DNA of 64,000 nt. It comes from Pedobacter sp. SL55. GTDB lineage: Bacteria; Bacteroidota; Bacteroidia; Sphingobacteriales; Sphingobacteriaceae. The notes beneath the pieces were generated by a model. That model was not told the origin of the DNA. It made no database searches and saw only the letters and a list, made by a program, of their open reading frames with translations. The first letter of the stretch is position 1; each line of letters starts with the position of its first letter. Both the position numbers and the translations under genes were made by a program. The stretch covers positions 1,178,001-1,242,000 of the forward strand of contig NZ_CP113059.1 in the NCBI RefSeq assembly GCF_026625705.1. Reading direction: 5' to 3'. Shown here piece after piece: positions 30,337-35,171 of this stretch.

Positions 30337-31410
30337 ATGCAATTTACTGCCAAGCAGATAGGCGAATTTTTAAACGGAACAATAGAAGGCGATGAAAACG
30401 CTCAAGTGAGTACGCTTTCTAAAATAGAAGACGGCACAGCTGGCGCACTTTGCTTTTTATCTAATCCAAAATACGAGAACTTTCTTTATACAACCGCTGC
30501 GTCTGTGGTTATAGTAGCTAAAGATTTTGTGCCCACGCAACCTACAGCAGCAACTTTGGTTAAGGTACAAGATCCTTACAGTGCTTTTTCGGTACTGTTA
30601 GATAAATACAACGAAGTTGCGAGCATGAACAGCGAGGAAGTAGGAATTCATAGTTCGTCTTTTGTTCATCCCACAGCTACCATAGGTAAAAACGTATACA
30701 TTGGCGCTTTTTGCTGTATCGAACAAAATGTAGTAATTGGCGATAACACGAAAATTTACCCGCAAACTTACATTGGTGCCGATAGTAAAATAGGTAAAGA
30801 CTGTAGGTTTTTTCCGGGTGTTAAACTATATAAGCACACCATTGTTGGCGATAGGGTAACCGTACATTCTAATACCGTAATAGGTAGCGATGGGTTTGGT
30901 TTTGCCCCACAAAAAGATGGCTCTTACAACAAAATTCCTCAAATTGGAAATGTAGTAATAGAAGATGATGTAGAAATTGGTGCCAATACCAGCATAGACA
31001 GAGCTACAATGGGCTCTACTTTTGTTCGTAAAGGCGTTAAATTAGACAATCTTATTCAAATAGCCCATAATGTAGAGGTTGGCGCACATTCTGTAGTAGC
31101 GGCACAAACCGGAATTTCGGGCAGCACCAAGTTGGGAGAAAACTCCGTAATTGGCGGACAGGTTGGTATTGCGGGGCATCTTACCCTAGGCAAGAGAACC
31201 CAAGTTGGCGCTCAAGCGGGCATCAATTTTAATACTGAAGAAAATAAACAATGGCATGGTAGTCCGGCACAGCCGTTAAAAGAATGGATGCGCTCTACCG
31301 TGATATTTAAGAAGTTGCCAGAAGTAGATAAGCGGGTAAGAGAATTGGAAACTAAAATAGCGGAGCTTACTGCTGTGATAGAAAAAATGACAACAACACA
31401 AACACAATAA
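30337..31410 (+). CDS. lpxD: UDP-3-O-(3-hydroxyacyl)glucosamine N-acyltransferase LpxD
   Basis: LpxD adds the second acyl chain in lipid A synthesis. The 357-aa product has an N-terminal uridine-binding domain (about 1-100, [22 protein letters not shown]...[13 protein letters not shown]), a left-handed beta-helix of hexapeptide repeats (about 105-320) and a C-terminal helix. Catalytic His is in [14 protein letters not shown] at about residue 240, and [10 protein letters not shown] is the family's substrate loop. A strong promoter ends immediately before the ATG. The stop codon overlaps the lpxC ATG by one base (TAATG), giving coupled translation. Confidence 0.97.
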
Positions 31411-32822
31411 TGAACGTTAAGCAGAAAACTATAAAAGGCGAGATATCGGTTCAGGGCGTTGGTTTACACACTGGAGCCAATGTAACTTTAACCTTTTGTC
31501 CGGCACCAGAAAACCACGGGTTTAAATTTCAAAGGGTTGATTTGCCTGGCGAGCCCATTATTGATGCAGATTGTGATAATGTTACCGATACCGCAAGAGG
31601 CACAACAATTACACAAAACGGAGCCAGTGTAAGCACCGTAGAGCACGTAATGGCTTCTTTGGTGGGTATGGATTTAGACAATGTGTTGGTTAAAGTTGAT
31701 GGTCCAGAAACGCCAATTATGGATGGAAGTTCCATTAAATTTATTGAAGTGTTGGAGCAGGTTGGTTCTGCCCTGCAAAACGCAGATAGAGAGTATTTTA
31801 CTATTCCGCATAACATTACCTATACCGAGCCAGAAAGAAGCGTAGAAATTGTGGCTATGCCGCTAGACGATTATCGCTTCACTTGCATGATCGACTATAA
31901 TTCTCCCGTTTTGGGAAGCCAGCATGCTGGTATCACTACCATTGGCGAGTTTAAAAAAGAAATTGCTTCTTGTAGAACTTTTTGTTTTCTGCACGAACTA
32001 GAATATCAATTACAGCATAACCTTATTAAAGGCGGAGATTTAAACAATGCCATTGTAATTGTAGATAAAGAAGTTACCAAAGATGAGCTACAGCACTTAG
32101 CAAAAATCTTTAATAGAGAAGAAATTGATGTAGCCCCACAAGGGATTTTGAACAATATGGAACTACGTTACCAAAACGAGCCTGCACGTCATAAATTATT
32201 AGATATGATTGGAGATTTGGCTTTGGTTGGCGTACACCTTAAAGGCCATATTATGGCAGCCAGGCCAGGCCACGCGGCAAACGTAGCCTTCGCTAAAAAA
32301 ATTAAAGCAGCAATAAAAAAAGAAAAAGGCAAAAAGAAAATCAATGTTTATGATGTAAATGCCAAACCCTTGTACGATGTGGTAGATATCATGAAGATAC
32401 TGCCGCACAGGCAGCCTTTTCTGTTTTTAGACAAAGTGCTAGAACTTAGCAAAACTCACGTAGTTGGGGTTAAAAATGTAACCATGAACGAGGAGTTTTT
32501 TAAAGGGCATTTTCCGGGCGCACCTGTTTTCCCTGGCGTAATTCAAATTGAAGCGATGGCGCAAACAGGAGGTATTTTAGTGTTGAGTACAGTGCCAGAT
32601 CCAGAGAATTATTTAACCTATTTTCTTAAAATAGATAATGTACGCTTTAGATCGCAAGTACTGCCTGGAGATACCATTGTGTTTAGATGTGATTTGGTAG
32701 AGCCCATTAGAAGGGGTATTGCCCAAATGAAAGGCGTAGGCATGGTTGGCGAAAGAATTGCTGTAGAAGCAGAAATGATGGCCCAAATTGTAAAAGTAAA
32801 AGATAGCGATAGCACAAAATGA
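31410..32822 (+). CDS. lpxC/fabZ: bifunctional UDP-3-O-acyl-GlcNAc deacetylase / 3-hydroxyacyl-ACP dehydratase (LpxC-FabZ fusion)
   Basis: This 470-aa product fuses two enzymes, as is normal in Bacteroidota. Residues about 1-310 are LpxC, the zinc-dependent committed step of lipid A synthesis. Zinc-ligand histidine is in STVEHVMASL, the second and third ligands in RHKLLDMIGD, and catalytic His in ARPGHAANV. Residues about 320-470 are FabZ (beta-hydroxyacyl-ACP dehydratase): KILPHRQPFLFLDKV, catalytic His in KGHFPGAPVFPGV and Glu in IQIEAMAQTGG. The link couples lipid A and fatty-acid synthesis, which compete for hydroxyacyl-ACP. It overlaps lpxA by ATGA at 32819. Confidence 0.97.
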   Translation: MNVKQKTIKGEISVQGVGLHTGANVTLTFCPAPENHGFKFQRVDLPGEPIIDADCDNVTDTARGTTITQNGASVSTVEHVMASLVGMDLDNVLVKVDGPETPIMDGSSIKFIEVLEQVGSALQNADREYFTIPHNITYTEPERSVEIVAMPLDDYRFTCMIDYNSPVLGSQHAGITTIGEFKKEIASCRTFCFLHELEYQLQHNLIKGGDLNNAIVIVDKEVTKDELQHLAKIFNREEIDVAPQGILNNMELRYQNEPARHKLLDMIGDLALVGVHLKGHIMAARPGHAANVAFAKKIKAAIKKEKGKKKINVYDVNAKPLYDVVDIMKILPHRQPFLFLDKVLELSKTHVVGVKNVTMNEEFFKGHFPGAPVFPGVIQIEAMAQTGGILVLSTVPDPENYLTYFLKIDNVRFRSQVLPGDTIVFRCDLVEPIRRGIAQMKGVGMVGERIAVEAEMMAQIVKVKDSDSTK

Positions 32823-33604
32823 TACAACCCTTAGCATACATACATCCGCAGGCTAAAATTGCCGATAACGTAGTTGTGGAGCCATTTGCGGTAATACATA
32901 AAGACGTAGAAATAGGCGAAGGCACTTGGATTGGTTCTAACGTAGTCATCATGGATGGTGCACGTATCGGAAAAAACTGCCGCATATTTCCAGGCTCGGT
33001 AATTTCTGGTGTGCCGCAAGACCTAAAGTTTGCAGGCGAGGTTACCACCGCAGAAATTGGAGATAATACCACCATCCGCGAATGTGTAACCATTAACCGT
33101 GGCACCAAAGATAAATGGAAAACCGTGGTGGGTAATAACTGCCTAATTCAGGCTTATTCGCACATTGCACACGATTGCCAAGTAGGTAACTACTGCATTT
33201 TTTCAAATAGCACCACATTAGCTGGCCACATTACCATTGGCGATTACGTAGTTTTGGCAGGTCTGGTTGCTATCCATCAATTTGTTAAAGTGGGTTCACA
33301 CGCTTTTGTTACGGGCGGTTCTTTAGTGCGTAAAGATGTGCCGCCTTACGTTAAGGCAGCAAGAGAGCCGTTGTCTTATGTAGGTATCAACTCTGTCGGT
33401 TTACGCCGTAGAGGTTTTTCTTCAGAACAAATTAACGAAATACAAGAAGTTTACCGTATTCTTTTCGTTAAGAATAACAACGTAACCAAAGCATTGGATA
33501 CTATTGAAGCAGAATTTCAACCAACAGAAATTCGTGATGAAATTGTAGATTTTATACGCAACTCTAACCGTGGCGTAATGAGGGGTTTTGGCTCTGGCGG
33601 CTAG
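32819..33604 (+). CDS. lpxA: UDP-N-acetylglucosamine acyltransferase LpxA
   Basis: LpxA transfers the first 3-hydroxyacyl chain to UDP-GlcNAc, the first reaction of lipid A synthesis. The 261-aa product is a left-handed beta-helix (about 1-190) with a helical C-terminal cap (about 195-255). The catalytic His is in QAYSHIAHDCQVGN (about residue 121), and GVPQDLKF, INRGT and AIHQFVKVG are family motifs. It starts within the lpxC-fabZ stop (ATGA overlap). The ABC ATPase gene follows after 6 bp, completing a four-gene operon. Confidence 0.97.
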   Translation: MIQPLAYIHPQAKIADNVVVEPFAVIHKDVEIGEGTWIGSNVVIMDGARIGKNCRIFPGSVISGVPQDLKFAGEVTTAEIGDNTTIRECVTINRGTKDKWKTVVGNNCLIQAYSHIAHDCQVGNYCIFSNSTTLAGHITIGDYVVLAGLVAIHQFVKVGSHAFVTGGSLVRKDVPPYVKAAREPLSYVGINSVGLRRRGFSSEQINEIQEVYRILFVKNNNVTKALDTIEAEFQPTEIRDEIVDFIRNSNRGVMRGFGSGG

Positions 33605-33610
33605 GTATAT

Positions 33611-34228
33611 ATGCAGATTATCCTTGAGAATTTAGGTAGACGATTTAACAAAGAATGGATCTTTAAAGAGGTCAGTTATGTGTTTTCTCAAGGACAACAA
33701 TACGCCATATTGGGTCCAAATGGCTCTGGCAAATCTACGCTGTTAAGTGTTTTACTGGGCAACCTTACTCCATCAGAAGGTAAGATTACCTACAAGGATG
33801 AAAAAGAAATCCTCCCCGAGAACATATTTAATTCCATTAGCTTGGCGGCGCCGTATCTGGATTTGATAGAAGAATTTACACTGCAGGAAACGATAGAATT
33901 CCATTTTAAATTTAAAGCGTACCAAGAAGGATTTGATGCCGCTGCGGTTTTAGATTTATTAGCCTTAAGCAAGGCAGAAGATAAGCCTTTGAAATATTTT
34001 TCGTCGGGAATGAAGCAAAGAACCAAGCTTGCTTTGGCTTTTTGTACCCATACACCTATTTTAGTTTTAGACGAACCCACCTCTAATTTAGATACACAAG
34101 GTACTGATTGGTATTTGAGTTTAGTTGAAAAATTTGCGAAGGATAGACTGGTTTTAGTAGGTTCTAATCAGTCTTACGAATATCAATTTTGCCAACATCG
34201 CTTAAATATTTTGGACTATAAAAAGTAA
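33611..34228 (+). CDS. ABC transporter ATP-binding protein without H-loop histidine
   Basis: This 205-aa single nucleotide-binding domain has Walker A GPNGSGKST (about 35-43), signature FSSGMKQR (about 131) and Walker B ILVLDEPTSNLD (about 153). The switch (H-loop) position reads VLVGSNQSYEY, with Asn in place of the usual His. The Q-loop region ISLAAPYLDL is also atypical. No permease gene is in the operon, so the partner is unknown. It ends the lpxD-lpxC/fabZ-lpxA run, which suggests an envelope role, but LptB is a different subfamily. Assignment as an exporter ATPase or a regulatory ATPase is open. Confidence 0.85.
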   Translation: MQIILENLGRRFNKEWIFKEVSYVFSQGQQYAILGPNGSGKSTLLSVLLGNLTPSEGKITYKDEKEILPENIFNSISLAAPYLDLIEEFTLQETIEFHFKFKAYQEGFDAAAVLDLLALSKAEDKPLKYFSSGMKQRTKLALAFCTHTPILVLDEPTSNLDTQGTDWYLSLVEKFAKDRLVLVGSNQSYEYQFCQHRLNILDYKK

Positions 34229-34304
34229 AATTTATATGATAAATGTGCCGAAATGTAGGTTTAAACCCAACTAAAGCACATCAAAAAAATATTTTAAAAT
34301 TGCT

Positions 34305-34336
34305 ATTGCGAGATTGAAAAATAGTATATACCTTTG
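34305..34336 (+). promoter_or_regulatory. promoter of the candidate ncRNA
   Basis: ATTG at 34305-34308, 20 nt, then TACCTTTG at 34329-34336, a perfect -7 box of the Bacteroidota type. Transcription should begin at about 34341-34343. Confidence 0.55.
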
Positions 34337-34341
34337 CGCCA

Positions 34342-34541
34342 CGAAATACGGACGAGGTATCAGCGTTTAAAAATCGGGAAAACACCATAGGTGTTGGATA
34401 TAAAAAGAAATAAAAGTGCCAAAGTTTACGTTTAATACGAGAGCGGCGGATACATATAAAGAGTAAAATAAATTTTCATAGTTTAGTTTTAGGTTTAGGT
34501 TGATTGTGGCTTCGGAGTGGTTCCCGAAGCCATCTTTTTTT
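34342..34541 (+). ncRNA. candidate ~200-nt structured RNA between the lpx operon and efp
   Basis: No protein gene is visible between 34229 and 34610, yet the stretch has its own consensus promoter and ends in a strong rho-independent terminator. Internal structure includes AACACC-ATA-GGTGTT at 34381-34395, and GCCAC near the 5' end could pair with GTGGC at the 3' end. Length and layout resemble 6S RNA (RNA polymerase regulator), and Bacteroidota 6S-like RNAs are known, but no diagnostic sequence was recognised. It could instead be a long efp leader ending in an attenuator. It is not tmRNA, SRP RNA or RNase P RNA by visible motifs. Confidence 0.55.
34507..34541 (+). terminator. strong rho-independent terminator of the candidate ncRNA
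   Basis: A 9-bp stem TGGCTTCGG/CCGAAGCCA with an 8-nt loop is followed by TCTTTTTTT. It stands 70 bp before the efp ATG and can only end a transcript starting upstream. Confidence 0.88.
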
Positions 34542-34610
34542 GCACTAAATTTTAAAAATTGTTTTTACCTTGCAGCTTCAAAAATAATAAGTAACAAAGT
34601 ATACATAGTA

Positions 34611-35171
34611 ATGGCAAAAGCATCAGAAATAAAAACAGGAAATATCCTTCGCGTAAATAACGAGTTGGTTACTGTTGATGAGTGGAATCACCGTACACCA
34701 GGTAAAGGCGGCGCTTTTTATACTGGGAAATTTCGTAACATTAAAACAGGTAGATTGGTAGAAGCTCGTATGAATACCGATGAAGCGGTAGAAATTTGTA
34801 GAGTAGAAACCAACGATTACCAATATTTGTATGAAGAAGGCGACGCTTTAGTGGTAATGGACAACAATACTTACGAGCAGTTTAATGTTTCTAAATCGCT
34901 ATTTGGTAACGCAATTAAATTCCTAAAAGAGGGAATGAATGTAATTGTTTCTATTGAAAGCGAGGAGCCTATTATGGCGCAACTGCCAAACTTTGCAGAG
35001 TTCGAGATTACGTATTCGGAGCCTGCGGTTAAGGGCGATACTTCTACCAATGCATTAAAAGCTGCAACGCTTGAAAACGGCGTAGAGGTTAAAGTTCCTT
35101 TGTTTGTTAACCAAGGCGATAAAATTAAAGTAGATACACGTACTGGCGAGTATGTAGAGCGTGTAAAATAA
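34611..35171 (+). CDS. efp: elongation factor P
   Basis: EF-P relieves ribosome stalling at polyproline stretches. The product from the ATG at 34611 (MAKASEIKTGN) is 186 aa with the three beta-barrel domains: KOW-like N-domain (about 1-65, with VTVDEWNHRTPGKGGAFYTGKFRN), OB domain II and OB domain III ending GDKIKVDTRTGEYVERV. The modification-loop residue in TPGKGG is lysine at the usual tip position. The frame is open upstream to 34500 but this would add an unrelated stretch through the terminator. A separate terminator follows at 35229. Confidence 0.96.
   Translation: MAKASEIKTGNILRVNNELVTVDEWNHRTPGKGGAFYTGKFRNIKTGRLVEARMNTDEAVEICRVETNDYQYLYEEGDALVVMDNNTYEQFNVSKSLFGNAIKFLKEGMNVIVSIESEEPIMAQLPNFAEFEITYSEPAVKGDTSTNALKAATLENGVEVKVPLFVNQGDKIKVDTRTGEYVERVK

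Follow-up and report, generated by a model that had tools for sequence, protein, structure and literature searches.

The gap between an ABC-type ATPase gene and efp in Pedobacter sp. SL55 holds a predicted RNA gene, which we have analysed within a stretch of 64,000 nucleotides (nt) of the forward strand (assembly GCF_026625705.1, contig NZ_CP113059.1, positions 1,178,001 to 1,242,000; 'the window' is this whole stretch, numbered from its first letter). At this locus the protein part of a gene's message appears to have decayed, leaving its tail in place as a small RNA. The parent gene is efp2, the name used here for the efp paralogue that carries a conserved 3' module. According to pairing predictions, other messenger RNAs (mRNAs), above all those for outer-membrane nutrient receptors, could have their start signals covered by the retained sequence. 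We are close to certain that this is a real RNA with a selected 3' module, and hardly less confident that efp2 is a relic in the window and that the RNA stretch derives from it. The reading as a whole, an efp2-remnant small RNA that pairs with start regions, is one we favour with moderate confidence. It offers a readable example of the path by which small RNAs may gain independence in bacteria, with the intact parent, the relic and the free descendant found at one locus in one genus, and more than once. If the predicted pairing is true, control of SusC/TonB receptor translation by small RNAs extends beyond gut Bacteroides and RbpB to environmental Bacteroidota.

The 3' module and its probable origin in efp2

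The predicted RNA consists of the following elements:

34305..34336, + strand: promoter-like site, with ATTG at 34305-34308, a 20-nt spacer and TACCTTTG at 34329-34336; presumably of the Bacteroidota sigma-ABfr type
34340..34541, + strand: predicted primary transcript of about 200 nt, deduced from promoter and terminator, with a start near 34340-34343
34381..34395, + strand: small hairpin AACACC-ATA-GGTGTT, near the former efp2 start codon (by eye)
34413..34471, + strand: relic of the efp2 coding 3' end, with TAA at 34469-34471
34470..34541, + strand: conserved 3' module of 72 nt, proposed as the functional small RNA
34473..34505, + strand: unpaired block UUUUCAUAGUUUAGUUUUAGGUUUAGGUUGAUU, in which UUUUCAU is the complement of AUGAAAA
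34506..34533, + strand: terminator, stem 34507-34515 with 34524-34532, followed by a T run (T7) at 34535-34541

The promoter-like site, hairpin and terminator around a noncoding stretch of about 200 nt are confirmed. A preliminary description, made from the letters alone, had listed the ATTG-N20-TACCTTTG site, a start at about 34342, the hairpin and a terminator with T7 ending at 34541; all are present and fit the sequence. It had also seen no coding frame, and there is indeed no sense open reading frame (ORF) of 20 amino acids (aa) or more inside the RNA stretch. The sole + strand ORF listed is a TTG-start frame that continues into efp; it was rejected as a coding candidate, its 47-residue N-terminal piece sharing too few words with proteins of like length. 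In the window the bare promoter pattern occurs at chance level (19 found, 20.0 expected), a scan of 34200-34700 finds one terminator-like site against 0.4 expected, and the RNA is no more stably folded than shuffled versions of it (z -0.55). The case for an RNA rests on comparison: it is conservation, as judged from sequence, that exceeds chance.

Relatives were searched in 59 rows (35 same-genus genomes, 23 from other families and the genome itself). The module is matched in all 35 same-genus genomes, with an expectation value (E) of 5.9e-18 or better; among the 23 genomes of other families the best match to this 3' part reaches only E 0.0016. The promoter and 5' stretch are matched at the right place in 30/30 loci, the window included, the weakest at E 0.27. 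Over 72/72 nt the window module is identical to the efp2 3' untranslated region (UTR) of locus L010, and the efp protein of SL55 is a 100% match to that of Pedobacter ureilyticus (L087), the nearest named relative. A covariance model of the 72-nt module (model R1) matches 53 of 151 genomes of the family at E 0.01, 20 from the same genus with scores of at least 85.9 bits and 33 others with mostly weak matches, with 78 non-matching genomes being of unstated kinship. Across the phylum it matches 9/296, five from the same family and four from one other genus.

A pattern for the 21-base core gives 118 matches in the genome collection, in genomes titled Pedobacter, Nubsella, Daejeonella, Hufsiella or Sphingobacteriaceae with three exceptions (one Bacteroidota bin, one Sphingobacteriales bin and one genome titled Flavobacteriaceae). 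These exact matches and the window form the 119 loci used below, among which identity of the core is no evidence, being the result of the choice itself; this applies to the last 21 nt of the block at 34473-34505, which are identical there with one free position. The 12 nt preceding the core (the anti-start part) are kept in 108/119 loci and the terminator loop GGAGTGGTTCC in 113/119. In 15 sequences collected by BLAST the block shows two variable positions and one insertion. It is not absolutely fixed, as judged from two sequences of the same genus, one with a one-base loss inside it (L063, 1501-1571) and the other with a five-base insertion (L064, 1501-1577).

The comparison of the gap among relatives that the preliminary description had proposed shows clear conservation, and its suggestion of an RNA that is new or little described and has a promoter and a terminator of its own gains support from this. 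In the terminator stem, 99% of cells are paired and three pairs are changed on both sides (13 distinct sequences), with 12 double-changed cells, a value reached in none of 500 shuffles. In the hairpin at 34381-34395, 95.8% of cells are paired and two of six pairs are double-changed, in four sequences only, from four close species; this pair count is reached by 100/500 shuffles. On the sequence evidence, the constrained unit is the last ~72 nt, much of the remaining ~200-nt stretch being a gene relic.

The position of the module in relatives points to its source. Among the 119 loci, it lies in the 3'UTR of efp in 54, is free in 59 (42 of a type labelled FREEo and 17 of the window type) and is unclassed in 6. 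The core begins 12-20 nt from the end of the efp match in 38/40 UTR loci (81-locus subset), and 50 of the 54 UTR loci have no efp downstream within the stretch compared. In nine of the 12 loci read from other genera, too, the efp stop codon is immediately followed by the module, next to the abc gene; the remaining three are L068, which is phage-like, and the weak L363 and L364. An efp gene follows in 47/59 free loci, the window among them, at 125-437 nt, and four loci have the order promoter, efp2, module, efp1, which is the window layout with the frame intact. Two efp paralogues are found in 26 of 35 Pedobacter genomes (G001-G035) and one or other alone in nine.

The stretch 34413-34469 of the window and the final 57 nt of the intact efp2 of L153 align with a score of 58 (shuffles: mean 29.7, standard deviation (sd) 3.9, 0/300 as high; 0/200 in a repeat). 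When the 17 window-type loci are tested for relics, 13 beat all 200 shuffles: eight match the efp2 coding 3' end, four the leader and the first 25-35 nt of coding sequence, and L079 the leader only. A relic still so recognisable indicates that the loss is not ancient, which would fit a dying leftover, with recent ORF decay and a promoter and 3'UTR that have yet to follow. We consider this very improbable: the 42 FREEo loci keep promoter and module despite a much-changed, hairpin-bearing middle.

A tree of the ABC and LpxA proteins covers 106 of the 119 loci (left out were the six unclassed loci and seven without an abc match over 150 aa). It was built by a quick method and has many open forks, and its long outgroup rows do not form one clade. 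At least six changes between the UTR and free states are needed on it, with 0/200 label shuffles as low; a first tree of 74 loci (7/81 left out) needed five. The window-type free forms require three changes on starred branches alone, and the FREEo loci all lie on one side of a single branch (99*). We take the UTR state to be the older since all outgroup rows used are UTR. The FREEo block has one variable position (15 sequences obtained by BLAST, not by pattern), and the 5' part differs and carries small hairpins. In one FREEo hairpin, 83% of cells are paired and 13 are double-changed (0/500 shuffles; four of 31 rows without an anchor were dropped, and alignment A6 shifts some rows by one column). 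We read this pattern as selection on an RNA without its parent ORF.

Several points weigh against this history. Four of the 17 window-type loci show a weak relic or none (shuffles as high: L161 3/200, L175 1/200, L083 36/200, L118 45/200), and a return to the UTR state through recombination may have occurred. The number of double-changed pairs is not above shuffles (terminator 124/500, FREEo hairpin 78/500), and relatedness can inflate the pairing measures that did beat them. At the level of sequence, we consider the conservation, the relic, the recurrent state difference on the tree and a bias in predicted pairing to be established here.

The history that we favour would run as follows. Ancestrally, an efp mRNA would have borne a conserved 3'UTR of ~72 nt that cleavage near the stop codon probably freed as a small RNA (by eye, no TAnnTTTG was seen where efp2 of L010 ends). 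The efp2 frame would later have decayed in the lineage of the window while selection retained promoter and module, leaving a free small RNA. What is left today of the efp2 transcription unit would be its 5' end with the promoter, a middle part that is scrambled, and the 3'UTR module, still intact and ending in its terminator.

Predicted pairing with receptor start regions

The most likely mechanism is action in trans, which we think probable on balance. The unpaired block would pair with translation start regions, UUUUCAU with AUGAAAA plus the A-rich 5'UTR, best with the mRNAs of SusC/TonB receptors, and initiation would be blocked, as FopS does in Bacteroides. Transcription, processing, trans action and targets are what we infer from the evidence given here.

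For 352 sampled genes, the difference in predicted pairing between start and coding regions is -0.69 (shuffled modules +0.56, sd 0.44; 0/150 shuffles). The SusC/TonB genes were taken from 71 TonB plug-domain matches in the genome, from which 10 weak, short or broken ones were left out, and four of the resulting 61 SusC genes were then dropped. At the starts of 30 of these genes the value is -15.96 against -12.38 for shuffles (sd 0.85; 0/300), and for the 27 in the rest of the set 1/300 shuffles does as well. The start signal recurs with 30 genes each in a second Pedobacter (G027, 0/300) and in another genus (G165, 0/300). The efp2 relic and the 5' end of the RNA show no signal of pairing with SusC starts relative to shuffles. 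Predicted pairing is stronger for SusC genes than for the remaining genes (p 4e-5) and for other genes with an AUGAA start (p 0.011).

As side observations, TonB plug-domain matches number 126 in G027 and 80 in G165 (71 in SL55), and several start regions, when read, have a CUAA-rich 5' sequence before AUGA.

A number of results speak against receptors as the target class, or against pairing as the whole function. When only the sequence outside the anti-start part AAAUUUUCAU is shuffled, the preference for SusC is unexceptional (20/150), and the gap between SusC and other AUGAA-start genes is matched by shuffled modules in 47/150 cases. The start-minus-coding difference is ordinary in the second part of the SL55 SusC set (81/300), as is the share of strong sites in G165 (76/300). 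A search for a long antisense target finds no other site in the genome within three mismatches of the complement of the 21-nt core. In addition, genera without the anti-start part (L066, L070) keep the core, and in another genus the matches have the anti-start side and lack the core; since both occur, no single reading covers them.

In these predictions it is mainly the anti-start stretch that carries the receptor signal. Our best guess for its role is that it covers start codons, and the receptor class is a plausible target; that receptor mRNAs are the main targets is a tentative proposal, which we lean slightly against. A 16-nt complement, at two mismatches, has 24 non-self sites and its reversed control 11. 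One of the 24 (L216) has an ORF opening within 120 nt with no ATG (flagged by script), and another (L209) lies ~150 nt before a SusC-like start (by eye).

The core, GGUUUAGGUUGAUU, is not accounted for by pairing and may bind a protein. This is the starting point for a different explanation, in which the module is a platform for protein binding or stability, its core being bound by a protein, the RNA acting as a sponge or stable decoy and base-pairing being secondary or absent. The core's own pairing signal is weak (SusC starts 13/150; 5'UTR part 6/150; 20/150 in the control that keeps the anti-start part), yet it is kept across genera, as is the terminator loop in the 113 loci noted above. 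We regard such a platform as unlikely, though a serious competitor, given that the anti-start part is kept in 108/119 loci and that start regions are favoured in pairing. No candidate protein was found: RRM_1 (PF00076) was not detected in the SL55 genome at E 0.001, with a positive Bacteroides control. This last result also tells against the pairing mechanism that we prefer.

Locus and copies elsewhere

The genes flanking the RNA are:

32819-33604: lpxA, named by eye, the upstream neighbour of the ABC-ATPase gene
33611..34228, + strand: ABC-type ATPase gene, from the ORF list, named by eye; the gene order is kept in relatives
34229-34610: gap holding the RNA, from the ABC-ATPase gene to efp
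34611..35171, + strand: efp (efp1), from the ORF list, the sole efp found in the SL55 genome

The gap had been placed between an lpx operon and efp. The efp side is right; on the other side the adjoining gene is the ABC-ATPase gene that follows lpxA. Further upstream, an ORF of 470 aa at 31410-32822 resembles by eye an LpxC-FabZ fusion, which is usual in Bacteroidota.

Copies of the module are also found behind other transcripts. In G071 a copy (67.9 and 66.0 bits in the R1 searches) begins on the base right after tRNA-Met (a transfer RNA, tRNA), between a phage portal gene and a head-morphogenesis-like gene; L068, from another genus, has a weaker copy with the same neighbours, 123 nt past the tRNA. 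The stretches concerned (L366, 1426-1571; L068, 1305-1571) have SPP1-type portal and head-morphogenesis-like neighbours and are phage-like loci of two genera. In all four matched genomes of one other genus (L360, L361, L362 and L365, around 1500), a UUUUUUAUAGUUUAGUUUUAA-like element and terminator directly follow the stop codon of a peroxiredoxin-like gene, named by eye. The G071 and peroxiredoxin-locus elements begin where the preceding transcript ends or would be trimmed, so that the ~70-nt module seems to be the unit. The phage collection has 43 records with a match at E 10 or below, none of the matches extending over 80% of the module, and a match in a viral contig (L369) was set aside as looking like chance, with no tRNA and no terminator after it (by eye).

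These copies bear on two further ideas. The module could simply act as an unusually effective terminator, preceded by a U-rich element, for efp2 or as a shield of efp1 against read-through. It has a strong hairpin and T run and marks an efp gene end in 54/119 loci, but the promoter is retained where efp2 is gone, copies stand behind tRNA genes in phage-like loci, and a terminator needs neither the kept 33-nt unpaired block nor the kept loop. We consider this improbable. TonB/SusC-type receptors serve phages as receptors. Conceivably the ~70-nt module moves from one host transcript to another as a portable anti-start RNA (efp 3'UTR, free RNA after repeated loss of the efp2 ORF, behind tRNA-Met, after a peroxiredoxin-like gene), and phage copies could silence these receptors and block a second infection; this is a speculation to which we give little weight, if more than to the terminator.

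Comparison with known RNAs

The titles and abstracts searched contain nothing on this RNA or on a small RNA from an efp 3'UTR in Bacteroidota, subscription journals being mostly outside their coverage. An Rfam scan of the window gives no family at gathering score. The best weak matches to the module are Bacteroidota small RNAs, among others that resemble chance. Flavo-1 RNA (RF01705) occurs above cut-off near the locus in L037 (2557-2655, - strand) and L079 (5381-5505, + strand), the L079 copy lying upstream of the RNA promoter.

The preliminary description had likened the RNA to 6S RNA (RF00013; 6S-Flavo is RF01685), with an efp attenuator as alternative, and had proposed a search with Rfam covariance models. 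This search was run and 6S was not matched: up to an E of 10, the scan of 34200-34700 gives no 6S family at all. A length near 200 nt is the likeness to 6S and 6S-Flavo, the pattern of conservation being another one. For a leader or attenuator, efp follows in 47/59 free loci, where the RNA may have acquired a newer effect on efp. A conserved role of this kind is contradicted by the 54/119 loci with the module after efp, 50 of them with no efp following, and by the module terminator that stands before efp in the window. Both identities seem to us the least credible of the alternatives, and the earlier interpretation as a whole is partly supported.

The closest parallel is FopS (RF04319) of Bacteroides, described as a ~70-nt repressor of susC translation with 12-15 copies per genome, an R1 seed sequence, the RRM-1 protein RbpB as partner, one 3'UTR-derived member and one phage-borne copy (Nat Commun 2025, PMC11697453). 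The module resembles it in its ~70-nt size, in its layout, with an unpaired stretch directly before the terminator hairpin (this holds for the module but not for the predicted transcript as a whole), in pairing with SusC-type starts (shown for FopS, predicted for the module), in 3'UTR origin (one FopS member) and in copies in phage or phage-like loci. It differs in score (window 25.6 bits and best of 20 relatives 31.6, with a cut-off of 56), in having one core copy within three mismatches in SL55 instead of 12-15, in that the SL55 search detected no protein of the RRM_1 partner type, in its parent gene, efp, and in ~130 nt of extra 5' sequence before any processing. A UUUUUCAU-like part aligns in the sub-threshold RF04319 match, the R1 seed letters themselves being no part of this comparison, and other Bacteroidota models are similarly weak in some relatives (BTnc201 31.0, rteR 30.7). 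By analogy, we file the module as one that would work like FopS, not as a FopS member.

The small RNAs derived from 3'UTRs in enterobacteria and vibrios likewise lie in the 3'UTR of a coding mRNA and end at its terminator. This layout is seen in 54/119 loci and in 9/12 loci of other genera; the window ORF is a relic. Unlike them, the present RNA unit keeps the promoter of a parent gene whose ORF many lineages have lost. Xist is also a noncoding RNA on the remains of a decayed protein gene; the present RNA is bacterial and tiny, and the part that has been kept is the old 3'UTR.
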